Made by a program: the position numbers and the translations under genes
The notes under the pieces: generated by a model
The model's input: the letters and a program-made list of their open reading frames with translations, nothing else
Told to the model about the DNA's origin: nothing
The model's database searches: none
Source of the DNA: Actinoplanes sp. NBC_00393
GTDB lineage: Bacteria; Actinomycetota; Actinomycetes; Mycobacteriales; Micromonosporaceae
Length of the DNA: 64,000 nucleotides
Assembly: GCF_036053395.1 (NCBI RefSeq)
Contig: NZ_CP107942.1
Span: 2,074,501 to 2,138,500, forward strand
Direction: 5' to 3'
Shown: in pieces, positions 21,503 through 39,542 of the stretch
How positions within the stretch are numbered: position 1 is the stretch's first letter
Layout: each line of letters opens with the position of its first letter

Positions 21503-21567
21503 CTGGTGCGGGCCTTCCTCGCACGATGGACATCGTCACTGGTGGCTGTCGTCGGGGAGGTGACCGC

Positions 21568-22362
21568 ATGACCGAGCAGCGGCCGTTGTTGATGGCCCGC
21601 TTCCTGGGCGGATTCCGGGTGACGGTCGACGATGTCGCGGTGGACACCGGACCGCGCCGGCGGGCCCGCCAGATGCTGGCCTACCTGCTCGCCAACCGCC
21701 GGGCGCCGGTGCCGCGCGACGTGCTCGCCGACACCTTCTGGCCGGACGCCGAGCCGGAGGCGGCCCGCAACAACCTGCACGTCACGCTGAGCTACATCCG
21801 GCGGGCGCTGCGGGCTGCGCATCCCGGGGTGGCGGTCGAGCGGCGCTTCGAGGCCTACCGGATCGCGGGTACGGCGACGATCTGGACCGATGTCGAACAG
21901 TTCGCCCGGCACCGGTCGGACGGCGCGCAGGCCGACCGGCACGGTGACCGGAGTGCGGCGATGCGCGACTACGAAGCCGCCTGCCAGCTCTACGACGGTG
22001 ACTTCCTCGCCGACGACCCGTACGCGGAATGGGCGGTGCCGGTCCGCGAGGCCGTGCGGCTGGACGTGATCGACGTGCACGCCCGCCTGGTCGAGTGGTA
22101 CGTCGAGCAGCGCGCCCTCGGCCCGGCGACCATGCTGGCGCGGCGCCTGCTGGAGATCGACCCGTGCAACGAGGCGGCGCACCAGCGGCTCATGTGGTGC
22201 TACGCGGCGACCGGGCAGCGGCACCTCGCCCTGTCGCAGTACCACCGGCTCGTCGAGCTGCTGTGGAAGTCCCTGCGCGTGCCGCCGTCGGCGCGGACCA
22301 CCGAGCTGTTCCGGGAACTGTGCCATCCACGGCCGGAGCGCGGCACCCGGCTTGCGTCCTGA
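21568..22362 (+). CDS. Short SARP-type regulator (winged helix plus BTAD)
   Basis: This is a 264-aa protein from the ATG with a GGGGAGG ribosome-binding site; longer in-frame starts lack one. Residues 8-95 are an OmpR-type winged helix (LGGFRVTVDDVAVDTG, RARQMLAYLLANRRAPVPRDVLADTFWP, NNLHVTLSYIRRAL). Residues about 110-250 are a BTAD helical repeat domain (YDGDFLADDPYAEW, LLEIDPCNEAAHQRLMWCYAATGQRHLALSQY). There is no NB-ARC domain, so it is the minimal SARP architecture typical of pathway-specific activators. It borders the CHAT/radical-SAM island and is a candidate regulator of it. Confidence 0.85.
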   Translation: MTEQRPLLMARFLGGFRVTVDDVAVDTGPRRRARQMLAYLLANRRAPVPRDVLADTFWPDAEPEAARNNLHVTLSYIRRALRAAHPGVAVERRFEAYRIAGTATIWTDVEQFARHRSDGAQADRHGDRSAAMRDYEAACQLYDGDFLADDPYAEWAVPVREAVRLDVIDVHARLVEWYVEQRALGPATMLARRLLEIDPCNEAAHQRLMWCYAATGQRHLALSQYHRLVELLWKSLRVPPSARTTELFRELCHPRPERGTRLAS

Positions 22363-22385: not shown

Positions 22386-22583
22386 ATGTCCACTGTTCAT
22401 CAGCTGATCGGCGTGGCCGAGCCGGGTGGCCTGCTGTTCGAGTGCGAGTCCTGCGGGCGCCGCCTCGTCATCGACCGCGACACCGGCGAGATGGTGATCG
22501 TCGACCACGGCGACCGCGCCGCGCTGCACCGCGGCTCGATCGGTGACATCTCGCTGTCGGTGCCGGAGGTCCACCGGTCCTGA
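22386..22583 (+). CDS. 65-aa protein with a CxxC zinc-knuckle-like motif
   Basis: The protein starts MSTVHQLIGVAEPGG and carries FECESCGRRLVIDRDTG, then an acidic beta-rich tail (MVIVDHGDRAALHRG). A single CxxC pair could bind metal as a dimer. It follows the SARP-type gene after 23 bp and is closed by a strong hairpin, so the two are likely cotranscribed. No function is known to me. Confidence 0.65.
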   Translation: MSTVHQLIGVAEPGGLLFECESCGRRLVIDRDTGEMVIVDHGDRAALHRGSIGDISLSVPEVHRS

Positions 22584-22589
22584 CGCGGC

Positions 22590-22619
22590 GATGGCGGCCG
22601 CGTGAGCGCGACCGCCATC
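22590..22619. terminator. Bidirectional hairpin between convergent genes
   Basis: GATGGCGG-c-CGCG, loop TGAG, CGCG-a-CCGCCATC: a 12-bp stem with one mismatch. It lies between the 65-aa gene and the oppositely oriented 139-aa gene and can serve both. Confidence 0.75.
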
Positions 22620-22634
22620 GGTGTTGCGGGTCCT

Positions 22635-23054
22635 TCAGGCGATGCGGACGACCGGTCCCTCGGCGACCGCCGCCACATTGCTGATCTTCTTGAAGTTGCG
22701 GTGGGTGAGCACGGTGACCATCTTGTACACCCCGCCGGTGGGCGGCGGCGGGTCGTTGGGCAGCGTGTTCGCCGGGACGTGCACGGTCGCCTTGTAGGCG
22801 GTCGACCCGTCCAGCGGCAGCGTCGTGGTGCCGATCAGCTTCTCCGGACCCGGGCCGAGCGACTCGACGTACGTGCTGACCGTCCACTCGCCGCCCATCA
22901 GCAGCGCCGCGAGCAGGCCGATGTCCCATTTGGTCCGGATCTCGAACGAGTCGCCGGCCTCCAGAACCTCGGTCGGGTCGCCGTTGTTGTCCACAACCTC
23001 GGCGAAGAAGTCACCCGGGCCGAAGAGCCTGTTGGGGAACTGGATCCTTGCCAT
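22635..23054 (-). CDS. 139-aa protein of unknown family, predicted beta-sandwich
   Basis: The protein starts MARIQFPNRL with a GGGAG ribosome-binding site. Composition is strand-rich with alternating hydrophobics: FFAEVVDNNGDP, DSFEIRTKWDIG, GEWTVSTYVESLG, TAYKATVHVPANTL, GGVYKMVTVLTHRNF. This resembles an immunoglobulin-like or C2-like sandwich with a Pro-rich loop (PNDPPPPTGG). There is no signal peptide. It lies downstream of a TPR gene on the same strand after 68 bp and may belong to that transcript. I do not recognise the family. Confidence 0.6.
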   Translation of the reverse strand: MARIQFPNRLFGPGDFFAEVVDNNGDPTEVLEAGDSFEIRTKWDIGLLAALLMGGEWTVSTYVESLGPGPEKLIGTTTLPLDGSTAYKATVHVPANTLPNDPPPPTGGVYKMVTVLTHRNFKKISNVAAVAEGPVVRIA

Positions 23055-23122
23055 CACTCCCTTTCCGCGACAGCTCCGTGCTGTCGACCGGGGAAGCATG
23101 GACCGGCCGGCTTCCCGGTCCC

Positions 23123-24742
23123 TTAGCCGCGGATTAGCCGGCCGCGGCAATCGAGTAAGTCGTAGTTCGACGGGCACTGCGGTGGCCCGGATGCGCTGGG
23201 CGCGCCGGATGGTGGCGGCGGCCTACCCGGACCGGCCGGCCTCCATCGTCCGCACCCGGGCGGCCGCCTGACGGTAGCGGGCGGCCAGCTCCGGCCGGAG
23301 CTCTCCTTGTCCCGTCGCATCACCTGCTGGGCGAGCAGCCGGTCCGCTGCCGTGCGGGCCGCTGCGAACGCCTCCCTGGCCTGGGTCCAATCGCGGTGCT
23401 GGTTGGCCCAGCGTCCCCAGTTCAGTTCCGCGCGCAGCGCCGCCTCGGCGCTTCCGGTCAGCCGGCCGGCCCGTCGGTAGGCGGCCGCTGTCTGGTCCGC
23501 GTCGTCCGGCCGCCGGTGTCGATCGAACCGGCGGCGCAGCCCGTTGCCCAGGTTGGCGAGCCGGGCCGGCAGGTCCGGTGACCGCGGATCGGTCTCCGCA
23601 ACCGCCGCGGTGAGCTCGTCGATCGCGGCGTCCAGGTCGGCGTCTGCTGACGTACGGTCGTAGCGGTCGAGCAGCCCGATGCCGAGGTTGCCCCGGATGG
23701 CGCTGCGGTCGTCCTTCGCCTCGGCCAGGCTCAGCGCTTCCCGGTACGCGGAGATCGCCTCGTCGAGCGGTGTGATCAGCTCTGTCGCTGCCGCCCACGC
23801 GCGCAGCGACCCGCCCAGATTGTTCAGAACCGGGATCCGGGCAGCCTGCTCCACCGTTTTCGCGGCTTCGCGATGCAGTTCCACCGCGCGGCGCAACTCC
23901 GCTGGATCGCCCCGGTAGGAGGCCCGCATCCGCAGCGTGGTGGCCAGTTGATCGAGCAGGCCGGGGATGGTCTCGAGCTGGTCGACGGCCTCGTCCAGGT
24001 CGGCCAGGTCGCCGTCCCGGACGAACCGGTCCCGCAGCATCAGTGCCTGGTTCTCGATGCGGTCCGCGTCCGGTGCGCTTTGAAGAGCCTGGGCACTCAG
24101 GTCGATCGCGCGGTCCAGGTCGTGCGGGCGGCCATGGACGGCGTACCGCTCCGCCAGGCCGGTGCTCAGATTGGCGAGTGCCGTCGGCCGGTCCTCCCGG
24201 GCGTTCGCCACGGCCTGCTCGTAGGCGTCGACAGCCCGGTCGAGGTCCTTCGCGTCGCCGGAATGCTGGTACCGGGCTCCGAAGGCGATGCCGAGATTGC
24301 CGAAGCGTCGCGACTGCTCGTCCGGGTCGCCGGCGGCCAGGGCAGCCGCCTCGATCAGCACGTCGACGGCCTGGTGAGCGGGCCCGGCGAGCAGGGCGAT
24401 CCCCAGGTTCGCCAGGGCCGCCGACCGCTGCGCCGGTTCGACGGACGTCTCGACGGCCTCGTCGAGCACGGTGACGGCCCGGGCCGGGTCGACGTCGATC
24501 AGCGCGAGCCCGAGGTTGCTGAGAATCGCCGAACGGTCCGGATCCCCGGCGGGCGTGAGCGCCGCGGCCCGCTCGAGGGCCGCCACCGCCGCGCGCAGGT
24601 CGGCGGGCAGGTCGGTGGCCCGGAACCGGCGCAGCGACGCCGCGCCGTGCTCGACCAGCCGCGGCGCCACGCGCGCGTTCCGTTGCGCCCGCGCACCCAG
24701 CACGTCACGGCTTGCTCGCCGAACTGCCGGCTTCGCCGCCAT
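23123..24742 (-). CDS. TPR-repeat protein with a damaged C-terminus
   Basis: This is a 539-aa protein; the ATG at 24742 is 8 nt from GGAGGA. From about residue 45 to 430 it is TPR-like, with repeated motifs such as RSAILSNLGLAL, RFGNLGIAF, DLDRAVDAYEQA and PARLANLGNGLRRRF. It follows the pattern of the N-terminal half of actinomycete TPR-CHAT proteins. After MRRDKES near nt 23305 the conserved WLRDA...SEALE segment seen in its relatives is missing, and the frame changes: the +1 frame reads ELAARYRQAAARVRTMEAG, which is the expected later segment. The called frame instead runs on into a Pro/Arg-rich tail to 23123. A deletion of roughly 140-150 bp with frameshift is the simplest explanation. 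No CHAT domain follows. Confidence 0.75.
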   Translation of the reverse strand: MAAKPAVRRASRDVLGARAQRNARVAPRLVEHGAASLRRFRATDLPADLRAAVAALERAAALTPAGDPDRSAILSNLGLALIDVDPARAVTVLDEAVETSVEPAQRSAALANLGIALLAGPAHQAVDVLIEAAALAAGDPDEQSRRFGNLGIAFGARYQHSGDAKDLDRAVDAYEQAVANAREDRPTALANLSTGLAERYAVHGRPHDLDRAIDLSAQALQSAPDADRIENQALMLRDRFVRDGDLADLDEAVDQLETIPGLLDQLATTLRMRASYRGDPAELRRAVELHREAAKTVEQAARIPVLNNLGGSLRAWAAATELITPLDEAISAYREALSLAEAKDDRSAIRGNLGIGLLDRYDRTSADADLDAAIDELTAAVAETDPRSPDLPARLANLGNGLRRRFDRHRRPDDADQTAAAYRRAGRLTGSAEAALRAELNWGRWANQHRDWTQAREAFAAARTAADRLLAQQVMRRDKESSGRSWPPATVRRPPGCGRWRPAGPGRPPPPSGAPSASGPPQCPSNYDLLDCRGRLIRG

Positions 24743-24810
24743 CTCCACCGTCCTCCGCAGTGGTTAGCCTGACGATACCGGCCGGTGGTGGCAGGGAGGG
24801 GTCAGCGATC

Positions 24811-26688
24811 ATGCCGTCCGATCTGGGTGATCTTGCGACCCGGCTTGTGGCTGTGGTCAATGCCGCGACGTGGGCGGAGATGCGGCGCCTGCTGGAGGCC
24901 GACCCGGAGCTCAGCAGCCCTGCGGCCGTGGCGGTTGTGGACGGCTGGGCCGATCAGGTGCGGGACGACCCGGAGTCCGCCGGGAAGCTGCGGGAGTATC
25001 GCGACATGCTGCGCGAGTGCGGCGAGCAAGGCGTCGCGGCGTACTTCGATGAGCAGGCCGCGATCCTGGCCGCCGACGAGACGATCACCGGGCTGACCGA
25101 GGCGATCGCGATCGTTTCGGCCGGCTCACCGATGCGGGCTGTGTGGGGGAATCAGCTGTTTCTCGCGTACTCCCGCCGCTTCGACGATCGGGGAGATCCG
25201 CAGGATCTGCATGCGGCCATCGCGGCCGCCCGGGCCGCAGCCGGTGACCCCGCTACGCCGAGTGAGGTCCGGCCGGGGTTGCTCACCAACCTCGCGGTCG
25301 GTCTGCTGGACCGGTTCGCCCTGCTCGCGGAGGATGCCGATCTGCGGGCGGCGATCGACGCCGCCGCGGAAGCGGTCGGCGCCGGTGCGGCCTGCGCCAC
25401 CTATCCGGAGGCGTTGAGCACCTATGGCCGGGCTTTGCTGGTCCGGGCAGCCCGGGGAGGCGAGCGGGAGCAGTACGAGGAAGGCGCCCAGGTCTTACAG
25501 CAAGCGGCTGATCTCTGTCGGGATCCGCTGAACCGCGCGGCCGTGCTCGCCAGTCTCGGCAACGGTCTGTCCGACGTGTTCCTCTACACCGGGGAGCTGG
25601 ACGTCCTCGACCGAGCAGTGGCCGCGACCACCGAGGCCGTCGACGCCACCCCGGCCGGCTCCGCCGACTGGTGGATCCGGCAGTCCAACCTGGGCGTCGT
25701 CCTGCTGACCCGCTACGACCACAGCGGCGACATCGCCGACGCCGACGCGTCGATCGCTGCCCTGCGCCGGGCCGTCGAGACCTGCCCGCCCACGGCTTCC
25801 GGCCGGCCCGCGATCATGACCAACCTGGGGCTCGTCCTGGCCGAGCGGCACGAACGGTTCCGTGATCCGGCGGATCTGGATGCCGCGCTGGCCGCGTTCG
25901 AGGAGGCGGTCGACGGGACGCCGGAGACCGGGATCCACCGGCCGATGGTGCTGAGCAATCTCGGCGGCGGCCTGATCGACCGGTACCACGAGCGCGGCGG
26001 CCCGGCCGACCTGGACCGGGCGATCCGGTGCTTCGAGCAGGCTCTCAGCGGCAGCGGGCTGGACTGGGCCACCCGGGCGGCGACCAGCCACAATCTCGGC
26101 CGGGCGCTGCTCGATCGATACGACCGGGACAGCGCCCCCGCCGACCTGGAGCAGGCGGCCGAGGCGGTACGGGCGGCGGTCGCGGCGACCCCGGACGGCT
26201 CGCAACGGCTGCCCGGGTGGCTCAGCAGCCTCGCCGAGGTGCTGGGACGCCGGGAACGGACCGCCGACGAATCCGACACGGCCGCGCGGCGGGCGATCGA
26301 GCTGGGCAGCGAGGTCGACCTGGCCACCGCGCTGCGGTCGGCCCTGGAGTGGGGCGAGCGGGCCGCACGGCACGGACGTCACCGGGTCGCGGTCGACGCG
26401 CTCACCGCGGGCGTCACCGTGCTGGAGCGGCTGGTTCGCACCCAGGGCCTGCGCCGGCAGAAGGAGACGTGGCTGCGGGACGCCGTCATGCTCGGGCCGC
26501 GGCTCGCGTACGCCGCGGCCGCGGACGGCGCGCCGGTCACCGCGGTCACCGGTCTCGAACGGTGCCGGGCGGTGCTGCTCAGTGAGGCGCTCGAACGGAA
26601 TCCGGCGGTCCTGCGGCAGCTCACCGCCGACGGGCACGGGGAGCTTGCGGCCCGTTTCACGGCCGCGAGCGGCCGCCTGGATCCGTGA
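24811..26688 (+). CDS. TPR-repeat protein, CHAT-less relative of TPR-CHAT proteins
   Basis: This is a 625-aa protein from the ATG at 24811 with an upstream AGGGAGG. The N-terminal helical cap (1-90) is followed by TPR-like repeats (about 95-480) with motifs PAGSADWWIRQSNLGVVLLTRYDH, RPAIMTNLGLVLAERHERF and DLDRAIRCFEQAL. The C-terminal conserved block is LRRQKETWLRDAVMLGPR...RAVLLSEALE...GHGELAARF, after which TPR-CHAT fusions enter the protease domain; here the protein stops. It is divergent from the damaged TPR gene (shared 68-bp promoter region) and overlaps the AfsR-like gene tail-to-tail by 32 bp. Role: probably a protein-binding sensor or adaptor. Confidence 0.8.
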   Translation: MPSDLGDLATRLVAVVNAATWAEMRRLLEADPELSSPAAVAVVDGWADQVRDDPESAGKLREYRDMLRECGEQGVAAYFDEQAAILAADETITGLTEAIAIVSAGSPMRAVWGNQLFLAYSRRFDDRGDPQDLHAAIAAARAAAGDPATPSEVRPGLLTNLAVGLLDRFALLAEDADLRAAIDAAAEAVGAGAACATYPEALSTYGRALLVRAARGGEREQYEEGAQVLQQAADLCRDPLNRAAVLASLGNGLSDVFLYTGELDVLDRAVAATTEAVDATPAGSADWWIRQSNLGVVLLTRYDHSGDIADADASIAALRRAVETCPPTASGRPAIMTNLGLVLAERHERFRDPADLDAALAAFEEAVDGTPETGIHRPMVLSNLGGGLIDRYHERGGPADLDRAIRCFEQALSGSGLDWATRAATSHNLGRALLDRYDRDSAPADLEQAAEAVRAAVAATPDGSQRLPGWLSSLAEVLGRRERTADESDTAARRAIELGSEVDLATALRSALEWGERAARHGRHRVAVDALTAGVTVLERLVRTQGLRRQKETWLRDAVMLGPRLAYAAAADGAPVTAVTGLERCRAVLLSEALERNPAVLRQLTADGHGELAARFTAASGRLDP

Positions 26689-29482: not shown

Positions 29483-29595
29483 GTCCCGGCCCGGGGAGTG
29501 CAGCGGTCGCTGTACCGGCCGGTGCAACGCCGAAGGACACGATCGCGTGCATCGATCCGGGACGACGGGCGTTCCGGAGGGAGAGGAGACACATC

Positions 29596-30117
29596 ATGCC
29601 CAGCACTCTGCAGAACCGCGTGGTCGGCGGCCTGGCTCTCGGCACCGCCCTGTTGCCGCTGGTCGGCCGGGCGATGGCCGCGCCGCGCGGATACACCGCC
29701 CCGACCGCTGACAGCAACGCCCGGCTGGCCGAGATGGCCGGTGACGGCGACGGCTGGTACGCCGCCGCGAGTTCGACCCCGCCCGCCACCACCTGCTCGA
29801 TCAACGCCTCCGCGGTGGCGTTCGTGCAGTCGGTGGAGACCGGCGACGGCACGTTCGTGCGCAGCCTGGCGGCACAGATCAACGCCGACATCCACAATCC
29901 GTACGTCTTCGTCGGCGTGACCCTCGGCGTCTCGGTCGACGTGGTCGACAACAACGGGATCACCCTGGTCACGTACTACCACGAGGCGTTCGCCGGGGCG
30001 ATCTTCGACCCGAAGGGCAACAACAAGGCGTACACGTGGATGAACAGCACGCTGATGCCGGAGGCACGGCTCAACCGGATCGACCATCTCCGCATCCGGT
30101 TCTCGAACGTCAGCTGA
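29596..30117 (+). CDS. 173-aa exported protein of unknown family
   Basis: An excellent ribosome-binding site (GGAGGGAGAGGAG) precedes the ATG. The N-terminus (VVGGLALGTALLPLVGRAMAAP) reads as a signal peptide with cleavage near residue 29, although it is not strongly basic. The mature part is strand-rich with SINASAVAFVQSVETGDGTFVRSL, VFVGVTLGVSVDVVDNNGITLVTYYHEAF and a C-terminal RIDHLRIRFSNVS. It is divergent from the AfsR-like gene and convergent with the radical SAM gene. I do not recognise the family. Its place beside the island makes it a candidate component or target. Confidence 0.6.
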   Translation: MPSTLQNRVVGGLALGTALLPLVGRAMAAPRGYTAPTADSNARLAEMAGDGDGWYAAASSTPPATTCSINASAVAFVQSVETGDGTFVRSLAAQINADIHNPYVFVGVTLGVSVDVVDNNGITLVTYYHEAFAGAIFDPKGNNKAYTWMNSTLMPEARLNRIDHLRIRFSNVS

Positions 30118-30125
30118 CCGGTGGC

Positions 30126-30158
30126 GCGGTAGGCGTGGCACGGCGCCGCGCCTACCGC
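30126..30158. terminator. Bidirectional hairpin at the end of the radical SAM gene
   Basis: GCGGTAGGCG (30126-30135) pairs exactly with CGCCTACCGC (30149-30158) around a 13-nt GC-rich loop. It includes the radical SAM stop codon and lies 9 bp past the stop of the convergent 173-aa gene. Confidence 0.7.
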
Positions 30159-32008
30159 CGGCCGACGGCCGGCAGGGCCAGCGCGAGGCCCGCCGATCCG
30201 TCGAGGAACATCAGCCCGAGCCGGTGGAACTCGGCGAACACGTCGCGGACGGCCGACACCGGCATGGTCAGGCCCAGACGGTCACGGACGGCGGCCGGGC
30301 TGATCGGTCGTTCGCTGCACGCCGCGTACACATCAGCTCCCGGCCCTTCGAAGGTGTAGGTGCCCTCGCGGCCCGGCCACCGCCCGTCGTAGATCCGCAG
30401 GTACTGCGGCGCCGACCAGTAGGTCAGCGTCGGCCGGACGTCGCCCTGCCAGGCCTGCTGCCAGGCCGCGACCGCGTCCCGCAATTCGTGGTACGCCGTG
30501 TCGGGCAGCGGGTCCGCCAGCTCGTACTCGAAGAAGTAGGCGACCTGCTCGAGATCGACCCGCTCCGGATAGACGTAGCCGTAGCTCGGCTCGGGCCGGC
30601 GCCACCGCAGCGCCTCGTCCGACTGGTCGAAGAGCGGGCTGAAGCGCTCCAGCCAGATGCGTCCGGCACTCTCCGGCGGTTGCAGATGCACCAGATGGGG
30701 TACGGCCAGCGCCTGCTCGGCATAGTCCTGCGCGGACTCGCCCGGAAAACCCCACAGCACGTTCCACGACACCCGGATCCCGTAGTAGCCCGCCCAGCGC
30801 AACAGGTTGACGTTCTGGGCGGCCGTGCTGCCCTTCGCCATCAGCTTCAGGACCCGGGAGCTCAGCGACTCGAGGCCGGGCTGGATCCGGGTGACACCGG
30901 CGCGGGCCAGCAGACCCAGCTGGGCGCGGGACAGGTTGGCCTTCACCTCGTAGAAGAACTCGTAGCCGAACCCGTGCCCGACGATCTCCGGGAACAGCGT
31001 CGTCAGGTACTGCACATCCATGATGTTGTCGACCGCCGCGAACCGGAAACTGCCGCACCGCCGGGTCTGCACGGCCAGCTCGTCCAGGACCCGGGCCGGT
31101 GACTTGGCGCGGAACTGCATCGTCGCCGCGTTCAGGCCGCAGAACGTGCAGTGGTGTTTCGCGCCCCACCAGCAGCCTCGGGCCGTCTCGATCGGGATCC
31201 AGGTCTGCCGGCGGCCGGCCGCGTCGAGCAGGCCCAGCCGCTCGGCGCGCTCGAAGTACTCGTCGTAGTCGGGCGCCGGCAGCGCATCGAGATCGTCCCC
31301 CGGCGGTGCGGGCGGGGTGGCCAGCACCCGGTCGCCGTCGCGCCGCAGCACCCCCGGAACCGTGGCCGGGTCGTCGCCGGCGACCAGTGCCCGCAGCAAC
31401 CGGGGGAGTGCCTCGTCGGCCTCGCCGCTGACGGCCAGGTCGATGCAGTCGACCGTACGCACGAGTTCGGCGCCCATGCCGCCGTCGAAGTTGGCGCCGC
31501 CGAACACGGTGACCAGGTCCGGGTGCCGTTCCTTGAGCCGCCGGGCCAGCGCGAACGAGGCCGCGTTCTGCTCGAACGTGCAGCTGAAACCGACCACGCG
31601 GACGTCGTGCCACGGGTAGGCGCCGGCCAGTTCGTCGAGGTACGCGGGCACGTCGTCCCGGCGGATCGTCAACAGCCGGTCGCGGATCGCCGGTGGCACC
31701 CCGCCCAGGTACGCCAGGTCGCCGGCGAACTTGTCGACCAGCCCGGAACCCGGGTCGGGTGCGTCGTCGCCGAACGCGTCGGCCGAGAACAGCCACTCGC
31801 CGACCAGCCGGCCGCGGTGCTGCGCCAGCCGGGCGTACTCGCCGGCGCCGATGCGCGCGGCGAAGTCCAGGTTGGCGTGCAGCGACCGGGCCGGGAAGCC
31901 GTGCCCGCGAACGATGGCCGTGAGCAGCCCGGCCTGGATCGACGGCCGGTCGGCGCCCAGGAAGGGCATCGACACGATCACGACGGGCCAGTCGGCGTGC
32001 GGCGCCAT
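30152..32008 (-). CDS. Cobalamin-dependent radical SAM enzyme, RiPP C-methyltransferase type
   Basis: This is a 618-aa protein. An N-terminal B12-binding-like Rossmann region (about 8-215; VVGFSCTFEQNAASFALARRL, TVFGGANFDG) precedes the radical SAM barrel with cysteines C279-x7-C287-x2-C290 in RGCWWGAKHHCTFCGLN. Further landmarks are AVDNIMDVQYL, IQPGLESLSSRVLKLMAKG and WNVLWGFPGE. The C-terminal helical region ends around 618. The CWWGxxHHCxFCGLN signature is that of the radical SAM family annotated as RiPP maturation C-methyltransferase (TIGR03975-type). It would methylate unactivated carbons of a ribosomal peptide. It begins 9 bp after the 78-aa peptide gene, its probable substrate. Confidence 0.88.
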   Translation of the reverse strand: MAPHADWPVVIVSMPFLGADRPSIQAGLLTAIVRGHGFPARSLHANLDFAARIGAGEYARLAQHRGRLVGEWLFSADAFGDDAPDPGSGLVDKFAGDLAYLGGVPPAIRDRLLTIRRDDVPAYLDELAGAYPWHDVRVVGFSCTFEQNAASFALARRLKERHPDLVTVFGGANFDGGMGAELVRTVDCIDLAVSGEADEALPRLLRALVAGDDPATVPGVLRRDGDRVLATPPAPPGDDLDALPAPDYDEYFERAERLGLLDAAGRRQTWIPIETARGCWWGAKHHCTFCGLNAATMQFRAKSPARVLDELAVQTRRCGSFRFAAVDNIMDVQYLTTLFPEIVGHGFGYEFFYEVKANLSRAQLGLLARAGVTRIQPGLESLSSRVLKLMAKGSTAAQNVNLLRWAGYYGIRVSWNVLWGFPGESAQDYAEQALAVPHLVHLQPPESAGRIWLERFSPLFDQSDEALRWRRPEPSYGYVYPERVDLEQVAYFFEYELADPLPDTAYHELRDAVAAWQQAWQGDVRPTLTYWSAPQYLRIYDGRWPGREGTYTFEGPGADVYAACSERPISPAAVRDRLGLTMPVSAVRDVFAEFHRLGLMFLDGSAGLALALPAVGRR

Positions 32009-32017
32009 CGCGGCAGG

Positions 32018-32254
32018 CTAGGTCGCGGCCTTCTTGCTGGGTGTTCCACCGGGCGGGTTGCCGATCCGCCACCCGCCGGGGCTGGTGCCGCCGAAGGTGG
32101 CGATCCGGGTCTCGAAGCCGGAGCCGGACAGCAGCTCTTTGCCGCCGGCTTGGAAGATGCCCCACAGCAGGTTGCGGTCCTTGTCCGACAGCGCCGAGGT
32201 GATGGTCGGCATCTGGTCGGCCAGCTCGTTGATGCGGTCTTCGGGGGTGCTCAT
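32018..32254 (-). CDS. Candidate RiPP precursor peptide (78 aa)
   Basis: The N-terminal part (MSTPEDRINELADQ, then ALSDKDRNLLWGIFQAGGKEL) is predicted amphipathic helix, suitable as a leader. The last ~25 residues are Gly/Pro-rich and low in helix (FGGTSPGGWRIG, NPPGGTPSKKAAT) and look like a core; a Gly-Gly lies at the boundary. The start is fixed by a strong GGAGG 6 nt upstream. The gene has its own possible promoter and is followed after 9 bp by the radical SAM gene. Small size, position and strong translation signal support the precursor role; no family match is known to me. It could instead be an accessory binding protein. Confidence 0.6.
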   Translation of the reverse strand: MSTPEDRINELADQMPTITSALSDKDRNLLWGIFQAGGKELLSGSGFETRIATFGGTSPGGWRIGNPPGGTPSKKAAT

Positions 32255-32292
32255 GCGAACCTCCGGAACTGAGGGTCAGCTACTCGCTACTC

Positions 32293-32322
32293 ACGGTGCT
32301 CGGGGCGGGATCGGTGCGTCAA
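32293..32322 (-). promoter_or_regulatory. Possible internal promoter for the peptide-radical SAM pair
   Basis: On the minus strand: TTGACG (32317-32322), 18-bp spacer, CACCGT (32293-32298), in the 101-bp gap upstream of the peptide. This is the largest gap in the operon, as expected if the peptide needs extra transcription. A short GAGTAGC direct repeat follows. Confidence 0.4.
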
Positions 32323-32355
32323 GGAAACGACGGCAGACCGACAAGTCGCGATGCG

Positions 32356-33600
32356 CTACTCCATCGGGGTGATGCCGTGCTCGGTACGCAGATCGCTCAG
32401 CGACCACTGCCGGAACAGGGCCGGGTTGCTGGTCGCAGTGGCCAGGTCCCGGTAGGTGGCGACCATCTTCTCCGCTGATTCCCTGGCCTCGGCGAACGTG
32501 CTCGTACCGATCATCGTCGTCTCCAGATAGGACCACGTGTCGGCGTCGGGCCGGTTCTGCCAGCCGACCAGGGCATGCCCGGGCACGATCACGATGGCCG
32601 GGTTCATCGAGATGCCCTCCAGCAGGCTGGCGACCAGCACCGTGCCGTCGATGCAGTTGGCCTCGCGGTCCTTCAGGGTCTCGCGCGGAAGCCGTACCCG
32701 TTGCATCGCCGCGCCCTCCTCGGGGCTGAACGACACCACCGAGTTGACGTAGATGATGCCGGTGTTCTTGAGGGCGCCGAAGATCGCTTCGACCTGGGCG
32801 ACCACCTCGTCGTCGCTGCCCAGGTAGCCCACCATGCGCGGGTCGGGAAGCTGCTCCGCCACCACCCGGAGGAACTGCATGAGTGTGGGCGCGTTCGGGG
32901 TCACGAACGCGCCGAAGTACTTCGTGACGTCGCTCCACTTGCCGGTGGCCGGGTCACGGATCGCCAGCGGGGCGGTGGTGCGGGCCAGCAGCGGAAGGGC
33001 GCGGGTGCTGTGCAGCTCGACCTTGCCGTCCAGGTCCTCGATCAGCATGTTGACCGAGGCCGCGGTGAGCTCGGTCAGATCGCGGACCCGGTGGTGGAAC
33101 AGGGTCGGCAGTTGATCCACCGTGGCGGTCTGGTTCGGCTCGATCTCCACGGTGTCGATCGCCCGGCCGGAGTAGCCCTCCACGAACGAGCTGATCCGCA
33201 ACCGCCGGATCGCCTTGCTGGCGTTGCGCACGGTGCAGGTCACCAGCGGGTTCGCGTCGCGGTCGAACAGGTGGTAGATCGAGGTCGGCACCTGTGCCAT
33301 GCGCAGCACCGCCCGGGCGTCCAGGCCGGTGGTCGCCTCCCCGCTCACCTCGTGGACCAGGGCCTCGGTCTGCGCCGCGGCGGTGTCGATGATCCGGCCA
33401 CCGAGCGGCTGGTTCTCCAGCTCGGCCGGATCGTCGTCGGTGGACTGCGACTGGTCCAGCTTGCTGAGGGCGCGCTCCGCGGTTGTCAGCTCGTCGAGCA
33501 GGCTCTGCTCGGATGCCGGATCGTTCTGCTCGAACACCTCCCGGCGCAGGGCGGAGACGCGCAGGCGTAGCCCGTACTCCTTCTGGTAGCTGTTGGTCAT
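32356..33600 (-). CDS. Transglutaminase-like (papain-fold) cysteine protease
   Basis: This is a 414-aa protein whose ATG overlaps the upstream CHAT stop by 4 bp. N-terminal residues 1-75 are charged helix (possible coiled coil), and about 90-200 are strand-rich (TCTVRNASKAIRRLRISSFVEGYS, then EIEPNQTATVDQLPTLF). The C-terminal catalytic region contains Cys316 in REANCIDGTVLVASLLEG, His342 in VPGHALVGW, and an acidic residue in RPDADTWSYLETTMIG, the Cys-His-Asp arrangement of bacterial transglutaminase-like peptidases. It is the third cysteine-protease-type protein in this operon and could cleave or crosslink the peptide or a CHAT partner. Substrate unknown. Confidence 0.75.
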   Translation of the reverse strand: MTNSYQKEYGLRLRVSALRREVFEQNDPASEQSLLDELTTAERALSKLDQSQSTDDDPAELENQPLGGRIIDTAAAQTEALVHEVSGEATTGLDARAVLRMAQVPTSIYHLFDRDANPLVTCTVRNASKAIRRLRISSFVEGYSGRAIDTVEIEPNQTATVDQLPTLFHHRVRDLTELTAASVNMLIEDLDGKVELHSTRALPLLARTTAPLAIRDPATGKWSDVTKYFGAFVTPNAPTLMQFLRVVAEQLPDPRMVGYLGSDDEVVAQVEAIFGALKNTGIIYVNSVVSFSPEEGAAMQRVRLPRETLKDREANCIDGTVLVASLLEGISMNPAIVIVPGHALVGWQNRPDADTWSYLETTMIGTSTFAEARESAEKMVATYRDLATATSNPALFRQWSLSDLRTEHGITPME

Positions 33601-35264
33601 GTCCCACCTCCAGGTTTGTCGGCCAGCGCGGCGGACGGGCTGCCGTACACGGTGTAGGCCAGCCAGGTCGGATCGCCGGCGAGAGCCCGGATCTCCTGAC
33701 GGGCCTCGAAGGTCGCCTGGGCGAGCGCGAGGTTGCGGGTGACGAAGGCGCCGTAGAAGGCCGCCGCGAACTGCTGCGCGGACTTCGAGCGCACCGCCCA
33801 CAGCGAGCCCAGGAAGACCCCGGCGCCCGCCGCCATGAATTGACCGGCCCAGCTCATCGGACGGTTCAGCGCCGGAATCTCACCCGCGCTGCGGCACGCG
33901 TTCAGGAAGACCAGGGGAGTGGCCGCGGTGAGGTACCGCCCGGCCACGGCCTTCGACAGGTCGACCGGGGTGAACGGGCCGTCGTCCAGGGTGATCACCG
34001 AACCGGTGGTCCGGTCGAACTCGTTGTGGCAGGTGAAGTGCAGCACGCTCGGCGGGGTCTCGATCAGCGCCCGCAGGTCGCGCAGGATTTGGATCCGGCC
34101 CAGGTCGGCCACCCCGGCGCCGAGCAACGCACGCACCTCGGCGATCTCACCCGGCGCGGTCGTGGGCGCCCCGCGCGGAGCCACGTAGGCGCTGTTGACC
34201 ACCTTCAGGGTCCGCACCCGGTCCTGCCCGCGGACCCGGCGCAGCACCGGCATCCGGTCGACCAGGAAGCCGCCGGCCCGGTCGGTCTCGCGGACCGGGT
34301 ACATCAGCTCCCACGGCAGGTCGACGTCGCTGTCGATGGTGAGGCAGCCGATCTTTCCCAGCTCCCAGAAGTGCTGCCGGATCTTCGGTGGCAGGGTGTT
34401 CCACAGGTTCGCGCCGAGGTTCTCCAGGCGGCTCAGCTGGTCGGCCGGATCCCGGTGCGGCCCCACGCCGCGGGCCATCTCGTCGAGTTGTGCCACCAGG
34501 GCGGCGACCTCGTCGCGAGGCTCGGCGGCCACCCGTTCCGACGGCTCGACCACCTCGGCGCCGGGGCCGATCAGGCGATAGCTGTACCGATCGTCATCCT
34601 GCCTGGCGATCCGGAGTGTCACCTCGCCGTCCTCCAGCCGCACGTCGGTGAGCGGCTCGTGCACCGAGCTCTCGGCGGTGGCAGCGCCGGCGCCGACTGC
34701 GATCTGCAGCACCATCCCGCCGACATGGGTGCCGCCGCGGTAGACATCGACCTGGACGGTCTGCGGCCCGTCGTGGACGGCGGTGAAACTGAACCGGACC
34801 ATCGCCGAGTCACCGTCGGCGGGAATGTGGACGTCCTGCTCCAGATCCCCCTCCGCGACCAGCCCCGGCGCCCAGACGGCGATCGACACGTCGACGCCGT
34901 CCGGCGGGACGTCGAGGTCCATCGGCGCCGACGTGCCGCTCCCCGGGGCGCGGCGGGCCACGTACACCTGGATCGGAAACCTCGAACCGGCCGCGACCTG
35001 CTCCGGCGCCCGGGCCACCAGGTGCCGCCGCTGGTCCAGGGACCGGTAGCGGCGTTCCGTGTTCAACTGCGCGCGGGACCAGGCGCGTACTTTCGGGTCG
35101 ATCGCGAGGGCCCGCAACAGGGCGTTCCTGGCCGATCCGGGCGGCAGGGCCAGGGCGGCGCCGATCGCGGCTTCGACCCGGGCCGCCTCGGTGGCGTCCG
35201 GCACCATCCGGCTCAGCAGCGCCCGGGCCGCTTCCGCGACGCGGCGGATCTCGGGTTCGTCCAC
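33597..35264 (-). CDS. CHAT-domain (caspase-like) protease with N-terminal beta domain
   Basis: This is a 555-aa protein with a GTG start and GAGGAG 10 nt upstream. Residues 1-75 are helical and about 85-200 a beta-sandwich (HLVARAPEQVAAGSRFPIQVYVARR, MVRFSFTAVHDGPQTVQVDVYR). A helical linker leads to the CHAT domain (about 300-550) with His413 in LHFTCHNEFD and Cys457 in FLNACRSAGE. PWELMYP and PMSWAGQFMAAGAGVFLGSLWAV are typical CHAT landmarks. CHAT proteases are separase/caspase relatives that usually cut a specific partner protein after activation. Overlap with the transglutaminase-like gene indicates coupled expression. Confidence 0.88.
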   Translation of the reverse strand: MDEPEIRRVAEAARALLSRMVPDATEAARVEAAIGAALALPPGSARNALLRALAIDPKVRAWSRAQLNTERRYRSLDQRRHLVARAPEQVAAGSRFPIQVYVARRAPGSGTSAPMDLDVPPDGVDVSIAVWAPGLVAEGDLEQDVHIPADGDSAMVRFSFTAVHDGPQTVQVDVYRGGTHVGGMVLQIAVGAGAATAESSVHEPLTDVRLEDGEVTLRIARQDDDRYSYRLIGPGAEVVEPSERVAAEPRDEVAALVAQLDEMARGVGPHRDPADQLSRLENLGANLWNTLPPKIRQHFWELGKIGCLTIDSDVDLPWELMYPVRETDRAGGFLVDRMPVLRRVRGQDRVRTLKVVNSAYVAPRGAPTTAPGEIAEVRALLGAGVADLGRIQILRDLRALIETPPSVLHFTCHNEFDRTTGSVITLDDGPFTPVDLSKAVAGRYLTAATPLVFLNACRSAGEIPALNRPMSWAGQFMAAGAGVFLGSLWAVRSKSAQQFAAAFYGAFVTRNLALAQATFEARQEIRALAGDPTWLAYTVYGSPSAALADKPGGGT

Positions 35265-35283
35265 GGGTGATCGTCTCCTCGCC

Positions 35284-36543
35284 TCAGGCTCCGACGAAGC
35301 CGAACGCCGCCCAGGCGTCCAGGCCGGCGTCGCTGCGCTCCTCCGGCTCCTCCAGCAGCAGGTCCTCGCTGAGGCCGTCGGCGACGTCATCGGGCAGGGA
35401 TCCGGCGGCACGCGCGTCGTCGTACGCCTGCAGTTTCTGCTCGTTGGTGGTGTCCCGGACCCACTGCTGCGCCTGGCGCAGCGCAGCGGCCGGGACCGGC
35501 TCGTCCTTGCGCCAGCGGCGGTAGAACTCGGTCATCAGTGCGAGCGTCGGCCGGTCCGGCACCTGCCACAGCGAGGCCACGATGCCGCCGACCCCCGCCT
35601 GCAACATGCCGGTGGGCAGCGAGACCACCTCGTCCGGCAGCTCGGTGCCGGGGGTCGACGTCTCGCACGCGGACAGGACGACGAGCCGGAGGCGCAGGCT
35701 GAGGCTGAGCAGGTCGCGCAGGGTCAGTGCCTGTCCGCCGGCCAGGTTGATGCCGCTCTCCAGCGGGGTCAGCAGGTTCGCGTAGCCGTGGCAGGCGAAG
35801 TGGGCGACATCGACGTGCTGGAGGGCGTCGCGGACCTGTTCGACGGTGGCCGCCGGCCCGGTGAGCGCGGTGGGGCCGGCAGGTAGCGCCAGGGCGGCGA
35901 CCCTCGCCTCGGCCGTGACGGACGGCAGCGAGGCGGACGGGTCGACCACCGCCAGGAGCCGATCTGCCGGACCGCCGGCCAGCTCCCGGGCGGCGGTGAG
36001 AGACCGGGCGTTCGGCGTGTAGCTCAGGGTCAGCTCGTCGAGGGCATAGCGTCGGCCGGTCGTGGCGCTGGAGTCCTCGTACCAGGCGGCGTGCAACGGC
36101 AGCAGCCCCAGCAGCCCGCCGGCCACCAGCACCGCGGCCGGTGCCGGGCGCAGCTCGTCGAGGACCGGGCCCATCACCTCGTCCCACAACCACCGGGTCG
36201 TGCGGTCCAGAGTGGAGTTCCAGGCAGCCAGCTGCGCCGGCCGGTCGGCCCGGAACGCGGCATAGCCCTGGTGGAAGTCGTCCACCATGGAGTGCAGGCT
36301 CTGCTCAGTCAGCTTGGGCAGCGGAACGTGGGCGACATCGTCGCCGCGAACCACCAGGGCGAGCCCGCCGAGGTCGGCCGCCGCCAGGTAGACCAGCGGC
36401 TGATCGGCGGCCGCTTCCTCGACGTCGTCGAAGGTGGGTGCCGCCAGAAACTGTTCATATCCGTCAACCCGGCGGATCTCCTCGATCACCTCGTCGAGGT
36501 CTCGCCGTGCGGCGCGGATCCGGTCCAGCATGCTGTCTTCCAT
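35284..36543 (-). CDS. CHAT-domain protease, separated catalytic half of a TPR-CHAT protein
   Basis: This is a 419-aa protein. Residues 1-110 match the usual CHAT pro-region (LDRIRAARRDLDEVIEEIRRVDGYEQFL, DDVEEAAADQPLVYLAAADLGGLALVV). The catalytic core has His252 in VAHFACHGYA and Cys293 in VVLSACETSTPG, then LPTGMLQAGVGGIVASLWQVPD. In many actinomycetes this domain is fused to a TPR array; here the TPR part is the gene 68 bp upstream. The start at 36543 is preferred, with 36531 (second ATG) possible. Expected role: effector protease controlled by the TPR partner. Confidence 0.88.
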   Translation of the reverse strand: MEDSMLDRIRAARRDLDEVIEEIRRVDGYEQFLAAPTFDDVEEAAADQPLVYLAAADLGGLALVVRGDDVAHVPLPKLTEQSLHSMVDDFHQGYAAFRADRPAQLAAWNSTLDRTTRWLWDEVMGPVLDELRPAPAAVLVAGGLLGLLPLHAAWYEDSSATTGRRYALDELTLSYTPNARSLTAARELAGGPADRLLAVVDPSASLPSVTAEARVAALALPAGPTALTGPAATVEQVRDALQHVDVAHFACHGYANLLTPLESGINLAGGQALTLRDLLSLSLRLRLVVLSACETSTPGTELPDEVVSLPTGMLQAGVGGIVASLWQVPDRPTLALMTEFYRRWRKDEPVPAAALRQAQQWVRDTTNEQKLQAYDDARAAGSLPDDVADGLSEDLLLEEPEERSDAGLDAWAAFGFVGA

Positions 36544-36611
36544 GCCCTCACCCGTGCACGGTCCAGTGGCCCGCATCATTGTGGGGTGGCCGGAAAGACC
36601 AAGTCCAGATG

Positions 36612-38513
36612 TCAACTGAGGGACGGCATGGTCCGCTCCGCGGCGTCACGGTAACGGGTGACCAGATCACCGTGCCCGGCGTCGGCCAGCCGCTCGAGCC
36701 GGATCCGGCTCACCTCCAGGGCCTCGGAGAGCAGCACCGCCCGGCCCGTCTCGGCGGCGACCGCGGCCGCCCGGGCATCGCCGAGACCGGCCAGCGCCAG
36801 GGTGCCGCGCGCGGCGATGCCCTGCGCCATGGACAGCCATGATTCCTTGTCGGACCGTCGTACCTGGACGTTCACGAGCGCCGCGGTGGCGGCGGCCCCG
36901 ATCCGGTACGCCTCCACGACTTCCGTCCACCGCTGGGCGGCCCCGGCCGTCTCGCTCCAGTTCGCCGCGCCGAAAAGAGCATCGCCGGGTAACGCTCGCA
37001 GGGCCAGCCGCCCGCTCTCCCGGTAGCGCTCGGTGGCCTCCGCCCGCAAGCCGGCGTCGTCGTTCCGGTCGCCCAGTTCGGCCAGCGCATTCGCCAGGTT
37101 CAGCAGATACCGCGGATACTCCGCCACGCCCGCGACGGTGAGTGCGACCGCCTTCCGGGACGCGGTCACCGCTCTCTCCAGCAGCGCGGTTTCGCCGAGC
37201 GCGGCCAGGGCGGTGCTCAGGTTGTTCAGGTAGGCGGGGTCGTTCGGGGCGGCCGCCACCGCGTCCTCGAAACAGGTGATCGCCTCGCGCAGCTCGTCGT
37301 GGTCACCGGTCGCGTCGAACCGGGTGCGCAGACCGTTGCCGAGGCTGTTCAGCAGCGCCGCCCGCAGCGGGGTGTCACCGCCCGCGGCGAGCGCCTCGCG
37401 GTGCCGGGAGATCGACTCCCGCAGGTCGTCGGTCAGCCGCGGGGCCAGCCGGACGGTGTACACGTGCCGGGTCCGTAGCGCGATCGCGAGGTTGTTCAGC
37501 CGGCCGGCGAGGTCCGGCGAGGTCACCGGGGTCTGCTCGACCACGTCGGTGTAGGTCGCGACCGCCTCGTCCAGGTCGGCCAGCGCGCCGCGGGCGTGGA
37601 ACCGGTCGTCCAGCGCCGCCGCGACGTTGTTCATGATGCCGGTGTGCTGGCGCGGCGACAGGTCCGGGCAGCGACTCGCCTGGTCGTAGAGGGAGATCGC
37701 GCGGTCGAGATCACCCGGGCCGCCGCGGGCGTCGCGCCGGGCCAGCAGCGCGCCGGCCAGATTGGAGCGGGCCAGCGCGGCTGTCGCCGACAGGTCGCCG
37801 GCGTCCGGCTGCACCTGTTCGTAGAGATCGATGGCCTGATCCAGGTCGTCGTCGGCGCCGCGCTCCTGGAAGCGGACCAGCAGAGCGTTGGCCAGGCCCG
37901 TGCATCCGGCGACCAGCTGCTCCGGGTCGGTCGTGGCGGCGGCCGTCCGGTACAGATCGACAGCCCGGTCGAGGTCCGCGCCGTTTCCGTCCGTGTCGTG
38001 GCGATCCAGCAGCGCGCCGGCCAGTTCGCGGATCGGCTCCGGGTCGTCGGCGTCTTCGACGGCCGAGGACAGCAACGTGATGGCGCGGTCGAGGTCGGGG
38101 CCGCTGTGCCCGCGTCTGCGCAGCGCCCGGCCGAGGAACAGGTCGGCGCCGGCCTGCTGGTAGGCGTCGATCGCCGCGTCCAGGTCGCCGTCGTCGTACC
38201 GGTCGTCGTACCGGCTCTCGAGGGCGCGGCCGAGATTGCTGAACACCGCGGTCGCCACCGGGTCCCGGGCGATCGCCGCGGCGCGCCGGTACCAGCCGAT
38301 GGCAGCGTCCAGGTGGTCGGGGCCGGCGCCGGCCCAGTGCTGGCGCAGGTGGGCCCCGCCCGTGCCGTCGTACACGAGCGCACGGACCACGTCTGGGGCC
38401 TCTTCCGCCTCCGCGGCCAGTGCCTCCCAGCGCGTCACCGACCCACTGACCTGCCGGGCGGCCCTGATCGACTCGGCCCAGTCCGGTGAGCTGTCCACTC
38501 CACGATGGTGCAT
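36612..38513 (-). CDS. TPR-repeat protein, separated sensor half of a TPR-CHAT protein
   Basis: This is a 633-aa protein and first gene of the operon. An N-terminal cap is followed by repeated TPR-like motifs (TAVFSNLGRALESRYDD, DLDRAVDLYRTAAA, LAGRLNNLAIALRTRH, LLNSLGNGLRTRFD). The C-terminal block VRRSDKESWLSMAQGIAARG...RAVLLSEALE...GHGDLVTRYRDAAERTM ends exactly where fusion proteins pass into CHAT. The start may be the ATG at 38513 or the GTG at 38498; neither has a clear ribosome-binding site. It is divergent from an SDR gene with a 53-bp gap. Confidence 0.82.
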   Translation of the reverse strand: MHHRGVDSSPDWAESIRAARQVSGSVTRWEALAAEAEEAPDVVRALVYDGTGGAHLRQHWAGAGPDHLDAAIGWYRRAAAIARDPVATAVFSNLGRALESRYDDRYDDGDLDAAIDAYQQAGADLFLGRALRRRGHSGPDLDRAITLLSSAVEDADDPEPIRELAGALLDRHDTDGNGADLDRAVDLYRTAAATTDPEQLVAGCTGLANALLVRFQERGADDDLDQAIDLYEQVQPDAGDLSATAALARSNLAGALLARRDARGGPGDLDRAISLYDQASRCPDLSPRQHTGIMNNVAAALDDRFHARGALADLDEAVATYTDVVEQTPVTSPDLAGRLNNLAIALRTRHVYTVRLAPRLTDDLRESISRHREALAAGGDTPLRAALLNSLGNGLRTRFDATGDHDELREAITCFEDAVAAAPNDPAYLNNLSTALAALGETALLERAVTASRKAVALTVAGVAEYPRYLLNLANALAELGDRNDDAGLRAEATERYRESGRLALRALPGDALFGAANWSETAGAAQRWTEVVEAYRIGAAATAALVNVQVRRSDKESWLSMAQGIAARGTLALAGLGDARAAAVAAETGRAVLLSEALEVSRIRLERLADAGHGDLVTRYRDAAERTMPSLS

Positions 38514-38566
38514 CTTCCGTCGTCCGGGTACACAGCCCTCTCGTGACATCGATGGAGGTGGGCGCA

Positions 38567-39295
38567 ATGGCCGGAATCGGGATCGTCACCGGAGGTGGTG
38601 CGGGGCTGGGTCGCGAGATCGTCTTCGGCCTGGCGAAATCCGGGCACGGTGTGGTCGTCGCGGACGCCGACCCGGTGGCGGCCGAGTCGTGTGCACGAGA
38701 CGTCGGCGAGCTCGGGGTGCCGGCGCAGGCGGTGCAGGCCGACATCCGGGTGCCGGCCGACCTGGACCGCGTCGTGCGGGCGGCCGCCGACCTGGGCGGG
38801 CCGCGGATCCTGGTGAACAACGCGGGCGGCTGGACGCCGAACCATCAGTACCCGTTCGCCACCGCGGCCGAATGGACCGCCACGATCGCGCTGAATCTGA
38901 CCGCGCCGATGCTGCTCAGCCAGCTCGTCCTCGACCGGATGCGCGATCTGGGCGGCGGCGCGATCATCAACATCGCGTCGACGGCGGGCATCGCTTCCGA
39001 TCCGTACGCGTCACCGGAGTACGGCGCCGCCAAAGCCGGCCTGATCCGGTTCACGACCAGCTCGGCCGGCCTGGCCGACAGCCATCAGGTCCGGACGATG
39101 TGCGTCGTCCCCGACTGGATCGGCCTGGACCGGGCCCACCGGGAATGGGCCGTGCTGAGCCCTGCCGAGCAGGCCGCCACCCGCCCGCTGATCCCGCCGC
39201 AGGACATCGTCACGGTCGTCCTCGACCTGATCCACGGCGGCGCGGCCGGCACGGTCGTCGAGATGTGGGGCGGTAAGCCACCCGTCTACCACTGA
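38567..39295 (+). CDS. Short-chain dehydrogenase/reductase
   Basis: This is a 242-aa classical SDR; the ATG has GGAGGTG 6 nt upstream. The cofactor motif T8-G-G-G-A-G-L-G15, NNAG near residue 86, a serine in NIASTAG, and Y152-x3-K156 in SPEYGAAKAG are all intact, so it should be active. D41 in VVVADADP favours NAD(H) over NADP(H). The C-terminus (TVVEMWGGKPPVYH) is short. Substrate unknown. It is divergent from the CHAT operon but not obviously related to it. Confidence 0.9.
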   Translation: MAGIGIVTGGGAGLGREIVFGLAKSGHGVVVADADPVAAESCARDVGELGVPAQAVQADIRVPADLDRVVRAAADLGGPRILVNNAGGWTPNHQYPFATAAEWTATIALNLTAPMLLSQLVLDRMRDLGGGAIINIASTAGIASDPYASPEYGAAKAGLIRFTTSSAGLADSHQVRTMCVVPDWIGLDRAHREWAVLSPAEQAATRPLIPPQDIVTVVLDLIHGGAAGTVVEMWGGKPPVYH

Positions 39296-39542
39296 CCGCG
39301 CAGGGCGGTGGCGCCCGGCCGGATTCGGTGGGTGGATGTGACCTTCAGGGAACCATTGCTTCCGCCGGGCCGGGCGTCCCGCCAAGGGTTCAGATCGGCA
39401 GAGGCCCGCGAGGGCTTAGCACTTTCGGCGTGACCACCTGCCGTTTCCCGGCGGCCGCGCTGGGGCCTGGAGCGGGCTGGTGATCGCGCGGCTCGGCGGG
39501 CAGGTGTAGTTCTGGGTAACGGGATGCCCGTACCTTTGATTC

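Follow-up and report, generated by a model that had tools for sequence, protein, structure and literature searches.

A predicted protease module beside a SARP-regulated radical SAM peptide cluster in Actinoplanes sp. NBC_00393: probably two independent neighbors

A run of six minus-strand genes lies within a 64,000-nucleotide stretch of the Actinoplanes sp. NBC_00393 genome (contig NZ_CP107942.1, positions 2,074,501 to 2,138,500; hereafter the window), a genome of 11.4 Mb in one contig. An original prediction had envisioned this run as a single operon and a new class of ribosomally synthesized and post-translationally modified peptide (RiPP), in which a pair of CHAT proteases gated by a tetratricopeptide repeat (TPR) protein controls the maturation or release of a peptide modified by a radical S-adenosylmethionine (SAM) enzyme, or is triggered by that peptide. 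The analysis described here points instead to two self-contained modules that abut and interleave, independent of each other, a reading to which we assign a probability of about 0.77. One is a RiPP cluster (module A) and the other a predicted protease module (module B). The six genes, with positions in the window, are as follows.

30152..32008, minus strand: module A; radical SAM enzyme of family TIGR03975 (C-methyltransferases of RiPP maturation), predicted to bind B12
32018..32254, minus strand: module A; 78-amino-acid (aa) RiPP precursor peptide (very probable), homologous to open reading frames (ORFs) adjoining the radical SAM gene in loci L102 and L115
32356..33600, minus strand: module B; TG, predicted transglutaminase-like cysteine peptidase, C316/H342/E360
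33597..35264, minus strand: module B; CHAT2 (DUF7363-like plus CHAT), PF12770, H413/C457
35284..36543, minus strand: module B; CHAT1 protease, PF12770, H252/C293
36612..38513, minus strand: module B; TPR-S protein (predicted sensor), PF20308

All six ORFs show a strong coding-type third-position GC bias and stand where they had been placed. With the start codons chosen in this analysis, the intergenic gaps from TPR-S through CHAT1, CHAT2, TG, and the peptide to the radical SAM gene are 68, 19, -4, 101, and 9 bp, in agreement with the range of -4 to 101 bp first given. Transcription of the run as one operon was not confirmed: the 101-bp gap has a conserved block common to L102, a relative without CHAT genes.

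The radical SAM enzyme belongs to a peptide-modifying family, as had been proposed. It matches TIGR03975 (rSAM_ocin_1) at 604.9 bits (cut-off 281.85) over model positions 1-606 of 606 and carries the expected CWWGxxHHCxFCGLN signature; in Pfam, PF04055 is over its cut-off, and the B12-binding family PF02310 reaches 24.8 bits, under its cut-off of 32.1. The small precursor gene 9 bp upstream is a further likeness to TIGR03975 systems. We found no difference in the enzyme itself, whereas the window's precursor and core sequence are specific to its own subgroup. The site and kind of methylation are predictions from this family.

The 78-aa peptide is very probably the precursor of this enzyme, since a homologous peptide stands directly upstream of the radical SAM gene in L102 (an 87-aa ORF) and in L115; on this point the original prediction is supported. 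No shuffled sequence was as similar to the L102 precursor or to the L115 precursor (0/2000 each), and the alignment with L102 shows two conserved stretches, LSxKDRxLL (leader) and (G/S)WR(I/V)G (C-terminal). Among ten candidate precursors compared with the peptide, four gave 0/2000 shuffles as high, although the ten were chosen by eye from ORF lists and the proportion is not an unbiased rate. Weaker matches were seen for L125, L122, L128, and L113 (6, 11, 79, and 80 shuffles of 2000 as high, respectively); the L104 and L033 candidates showed no similarity. A search of a large protein database returned one homologue besides the peptide itself, P0008, which is 86% identical. Because P0008 keeps GWRIGNPPGGTPSKK, the C-terminal part of the peptide, where GWRIGNPPGGTPSKK is located, is the likely core.

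When the 59 other genus genomes were searched, 26 had close orthologues of the radical SAM enzyme (at least 50% identity), at 27 loci in all. Small upstream ORFs that passed a GC filter, candidate precursors only, occur at 24 of these 27 loci, with none in L116, L120, and L127. At many of the loci (L105-L112, L114, L117-L119) the upstream ORF is of a different kind: its N-terminal half is hydrophobic, and it has an FxxAFxPG-like motif; these ORFs stand under the same pairing of SARP regulator and radical SAM enzyme and have no visible similarity to the window's peptide.

The other half of the run also contains what had been predicted for it, with one reservation. PF12770 is over its cut-off of 24 in both CHAT genes (178 and 67.6 bits; E 3.6e-52 for CHAT1), and a predicted His/Cys dyad is kept in each: H252/C293 of CHAT1 was identified by alignment to the Craspase CHAT protein, and H413 and C457 of CHAT2 are kept in 66/66 aligned rows (the query and 65 of 69 database hits, one hit being the query's own copy). 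The TPR protein of the run reaches 41.1 bits against PF20308 (TPR-S; cut-off 27.6). The reservation concerns TG, a stand-alone protein of 414 aa with no Pfam match at E<=0.1 and no PDB match. Its label as transglutaminase-like comes from C316, H342, and E360, invariant in 22 aligned relatives, and from a local match to NF058533 (anti-phage ProA) at model positions 43-236. At 88.8 bits against a cut-off of 1500, TG falls outside ProA itself, and it differs from ProA in standing alone.

CHAT1 resembles Craspase TPR-CHAT (Csx29) in aligning over the CHAT-domain His and Cys and in having a TPR protein encoded next door; unlike Csx29, the window has CHAT and TPR-S on separate chains, and neither CHAT1 (49.9 bits) nor CHAT2 (17.0 bits) reaches the Csx29 model cut-off of 300. 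A split TPR-CHAT (Craspase-like) protein was considered and set aside as not shown, with TPR-S matching other TPR proteins and not the CHAT-bearing ORFs of L193, L134, and L135 (E<=1e-6). Fusions to CRP-like, protein kinase, and SARP/BTAD domains occur among relatives of CHAT2 (P0142, P0149, P0185, and others), which suggests one protease domain under many sensors.

Whether these two halves belong together can be asked of other genomes. Matches to the radical SAM enzyme were found in 32 of 397 order genomes (E<=1e-60) and in 32 of 60 genus genomes, and a family-model search gave matches in 21 of 394 class genomes, each count including the window's own genome. The matches listed outside that genome gave 93 radical SAM loci (L031-L050, L102-L128, and L147-L192), each taken with flanks of about 9 kb as far as the contig reached; 13 are cut by contig ends, and L180 has two radical SAM genes with about 4 kb on one side of each. 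At E<=1e-3, the CHAT and CHAT2 models hit none of the 93, and tblastn likewise found no CHAT in the 20 and 27 loci where it was run. As a control, the CHAT, CHAT2, and TG models recover the window's CHAT1, CHAT2, and TG; the CHAT model was built from four sequences (of those intended for training, L134 dropped out and L133 was partial) and recovered CHAT1, CHAT2, and L083.

A single hit to the TG model among the 93 loci falls in L040, inside a long ProA/Hhe-type ORF. This antiphage-type ORF (L040:15232-19899, plus strand) lies about 4.4 kb from a distant TIGR03975 radical SAM gene; its N-terminal region resembles TG, and it carries this TG-like region together with DUF4011 and helicase domains, a likeness to the ProA/Hhe anti-phage proteins (NF058533, NF042953).

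These counts bear most heavily on the proposed new RiPP class, with CHAT, TPR, and TG proteins as standard maturation or release factors. The gene order and short gaps of the window are what such a class would look like, but L102 and L115 have the precursor and radical SAM gene and lack CHAT and TG genes altogether, and full-length TG occurs in 1/67 genus genomes, the window's own. With 0/93 other radical SAM loci carrying a detected CHAT gene, the outcome that the original prediction had itself named as speaking against it, a CHAT-gated RiPP class is unsupported; we regard it as highly improbable and close to refuted.

By sequence and gene order, the pair of precursor and radical SAM enzyme is part of a SARP-regulated RiPP cluster that does without CHAT. 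The remaining genes of this module A are the following.

21526..22362, plus strand: BTAD regulator, PF03704; 58-73% identical in L102, L113, L115, and L122
22635..23060, minus strand: "sm," a conserved protein of ~140 aa; matches adjoin SARP in L102, L113, L115, and L122
26657..29527, minus strand: SARP (BTAD)/NB-ARC/TPR regulator; PF03704, PF00931, TPRs
29596..30117, plus strand: "sec," a conserved protein; matches lie between the radical SAM gene and SARP in L102, L113, and L115

A match to the SARP/NB-ARC/TPR regulator (E<=1e-50) stands beside the radical SAM gene in all 27 close genus loci; such matches are also present in 6/20 order loci and in 4/46 remaining loci. The nearest cluster, L102, has a radical SAM enzyme 72-73% identical to the window's and the genes BTAD, sm, SARP, sec, and radical SAM in the window's order; it has no matches to CHAT1, CHAT2, TG, TPR-S, or the two further TPR-S-type genes of the window, TPRa and TPRb. 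L113 and L115 carry the gene set of L102, and L122 carries it without sec. A radical SAM tree with 48 rows places the window's enzyme next to that of L102 (support 99/94), with L113 and L115 joining the two (100/99). The sm and sec proteins, which match no Pfam family at E<=0.01, travel with the window's radical SAM subgroup. The SARP protein matches in part the models for HaaT, a cyclophane RiPP protein (319.6 bits, cut-off 1125), and AfsR (612.5 bits, cut-off 1430).

The modules meet at the 101-bp gap that separates the TG stop from the start of the peptide gene.

32318..32354, minus strand: module A; 37-bp candidate promoter/operator-like block, beginning right after the TG stop

This block, which holds TGTCGGTCTGCCGTCGTTTCCTTGAC, is identical at 28/37 positions to a block upstream of the L102 precursor (0/1000 dinucleotide shuffles as high), and the distance from block to radical SAM start is 334 nt in the window and 331 nt in L102. 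A pattern made from the two blocks has no second match in the window at <=3 mismatches, which is a rarity check only, the pattern being derived from the window and L102 themselves. GTC/GAC repeats recur in the block at a spacing of ~11 bp, which we take to resemble a SARP operator. Similarity to L102 begins one base past the TG stop; the CHAT module therefore ends where the RiPP control region begins. It seems that the precursor has retained a control region or promoter of its own, and the block, being conserved, speaks for transcription also starting inside the run, ahead of the peptide.

The protease module can also be followed away from the peptide cluster. A database search with TG, in which 7,998 candidates were scored, gave 554 relatives at E<=0.001; the best 120 of these (own copy aside) are 48-62% identical to TG and include proteins of Actinoplanes, Desulfonema, and Chloroflexota, and the closest among the matches listed is P0013 of Actinoplanes sp. 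CA-030573. Eleven loci with TG were found in GTDB contigs, and tblastn with the window's radical SAM enzyme found no match in any of them. In Nonomuraea locus L083, the genes CHAT1, CHAT2, and TG stand in the window's order (56, 43, and 48% identical) together with several TPR genes that resemble those of the window; a patatin gene lies nearby. A caspase-fold protease is found beside TG at eight of the 11 loci (L080-L087): the partners are CHAT with an LCAT-like hydrolase in L080 and L081; a C14 caspase in L082; C25 peptidases in L084, L085, and L087; and CHAT, CHAT-nSTAND1, and C25 in L086. The L081 CHAT is at 20.6 bits against the Pfam cut-off of 24, with E 1.4e-12 in the CHAT2-family model. 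L089 and L090 have nSTAND1 but no caspase-fold gene, and the L088 partner is cut by a contig end. The ~410-aa TG family thus recurs with CHAT, C14, C25, and nSTAND1 in at least four phyla (Chloroflexota, Actinomycetota, Planctomycetota, and Myxococcota).

Full-length TG is otherwise scarce in related genomes. Among 396 phylum genomes, two match at E<=1e-40, of which one is the host genome itself and the other matches only in part; among 397 order genomes, 27 others match only locally (E<=1e-8), and 24 of the 28 order-genome TG rows sit in open frames of at least 1,900 residues, the size of the ProA model. Carriage of TG by phages or plasmids was considered and rejected: no relative was confirmed in viral contigs, and of the four plasmid records that match TG locally, none does so over 80% of the query.

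Patchy occurrence of this kind, with nSTAND1, EAD1, CHAT, C14, and C25 among the partners, fits a conflict system. It is also conceivable that module B performs regulatory or developmental proteolysis and not defense, which would be compatible with two modules side by side. The CHAT, TG, and TPR-S proteins had no match among the PADLOC models (E<=0.01), and this, the viral and plasmid results just given, as well as the kinase, CRP-like, and SARP fusions of CHAT2 relatives, would suit such a role. Occurrence in 1/67 genus genomes and partners typical of conflict systems would not, and we consider regulation a possible but lesser explanation.

If the two modules are indeed separate, their workings may be sketched from protein families. 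In module A (BTAD, sm, SARP/NB-ARC/TPR, sec, precursor, and B12 radical SAM enzyme), SARP would activate transcription from a promoter immediately ahead of the precursor gene, and the radical SAM enzyme would, as inferred from its family, C-methylate the precursor's C-terminal core. Module B (the TPR-S proteins, CHAT1, CHAT2, and TG) would be a conflict or cell-death protease module, with roles proposed from families, kept catalytic residues, and neighbors: TPR-S may sense a trigger and then license CHAT1 and CHAT2, and the CHAT proteases and TG, their partner cysteine peptidase, may cleave each other or target proteins in a death or defense response. In this lineage, module B would have become attached to module A immediately next to the control region of the precursor. 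The case for two modules rests on radical SAM loci without CHAT (0/93), conservation of module A, a precursor homologous in L102 and L115, the promoter-like block common to L102, CHAT1, CHAT2, and TG without a radical SAM gene in L083, and TG in 1/67 genus genomes.

Several observations weigh against this separation, beginning with two TPR genes on the far side of the radical SAM block.

23123..24748, minus strand: TPRa, TPR-S-type; probably module B, inside module A; 33% identical to TPR-S
24712..26688, plus strand: TPRb, TPR-S-type; probably module B, located inside module A; 32% identical to TPR-S over 547 columns, with a common C-terminal segment

Both lie between sm and SARP, with TG, CHAT2, CHAT1, and TPR-S beyond the precursor; because genes of module B type stand on both sides of the radical SAM block, more than simple abutment may be involved. 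TPR-S matches elsewhere in the host genome are confined to three other loci (E<=1e-10). In the gap itself there is no minus-strand terminator-like site, so read-through into the peptide is possible, and a simple scan of 29400-38900 found no sigma-70-like promoter (0.2 expected). Only L102, of seven upstream regions, has a significant match to the gap; L113, L115, L122, L125, L126, and L104 have none. The co-occurrence survey, finally, left out the P0008 locus and the Actinoplanes sp. CA-030573 TG locus (P0013). Among the CHAT2 hits listed, none was on a contig of 7,484 bp, the length of the contig with P0008, although clustering of near-identical sequences may conceal such a copy.

Such observations would be explained by a strain-specific coupling, in which the TPR-S, CHAT, and TG genes were recruited into the RiPP cluster and the peptide serves as trigger, guard, or second effector, or is released or destroyed by CHAT and TG. 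The interleaving of the gene sets (sm and SARP enclose TPRa and TPRb), the small number of TPR-S-type loci elsewhere in this genome, and a shared strand across a 101-bp gap with no terminator-like site speak in its favor, and Kaur et al. 2020 (PMC7159879) provide a precedent for radical SAM-peptide systems joined to actinobacterial conflict systems. Against it stand CHAT at 0/93 other radical SAM loci, TG loci without a radical SAM gene, the promoter-like block directly before the precursor, and the end of TPRa. TPRa scores 27.8 bits against PF20308 (cut-off 27.6) and keeps the C-terminal RRxDKE motif; the sequence after the motif is unlike TPR-S and TPRb, and its C-terminal end is possibly degenerate. 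Furthermore, TPR-S, TPRa, and TPRb have no hit at E<=1e-10 in any of the 93 radical SAM loci. On balance we judge coupling unlikely. A welded conflict system, with TPR-S sensors flanking the RiPP block, a TPR-S/CHAT/TG protease cascade for which the B12-methylated peptide would be the signal, the guard, or a second effector, and read-through from the CHAT genes raising peptide output, seems to us similarly unlikely.

A mobile-element origin for the arrangement was rejected: the larger direct-repeat families in 22400-39400 lie mainly inside TPR genes (20 of 24 families viewed). No insertion-element ends were seen at the junctions, integrases and transposases not having been searched by family, and there is no tRNA in the window.

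The VMAP-linked peptide systems described in passages of Kaur et al. 2020 (PMC7159879) comprise a SPASM-type radical SAM enzyme, FxSxx peptides, a metallopeptidase, and MoxR/vWA/VMAP. The window shares with them a radical SAM enzyme, a small precursor, and an AP-ATPase/TPR protein beside predicted conflict genes in actinobacteria, but its enzyme is of predicted B12 type and theirs of SPASM type; the window's SARP protein reaches 108.7 bits in the FxSxx TPR protein model, under the cut-off of 300. According to the same passages, VMAP systems contain caspase-hydrolase pairs and, in rare cases, transglutaminase-like peptidases. L080 and L081, with an LCAT-like hydrolase and CHAT, resemble such caspase/alpha-beta-hydrolase pairs, whereas the constant partner at the TG loci is the ~410-aa TG family, a pairing that those passages do not contain. 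Nor was a description of TG paired with caspase-fold proteases found in the literature searched, closed papers lying outside the search.

Both modules offer leads. Module A represents a SARP-controlled B12 radical SAM peptide family, common in the genus, for which a precursor can be recognized and a core motif and promoter proposed. The recurrent pairing of a stand-alone TG with caspase-fold proteases (CHAT, C14, C25) across several bacterial phyla is the more interesting lead; if true, it would be a two-protease arrangement with a bearing on programmed cell death in bacteria. A further instance may be at hand, as TG relative P0021 and CHAT2 relative P0133 each have 216,589 bp given as the length of their longest contig, which probably puts them together on one JGI contig.

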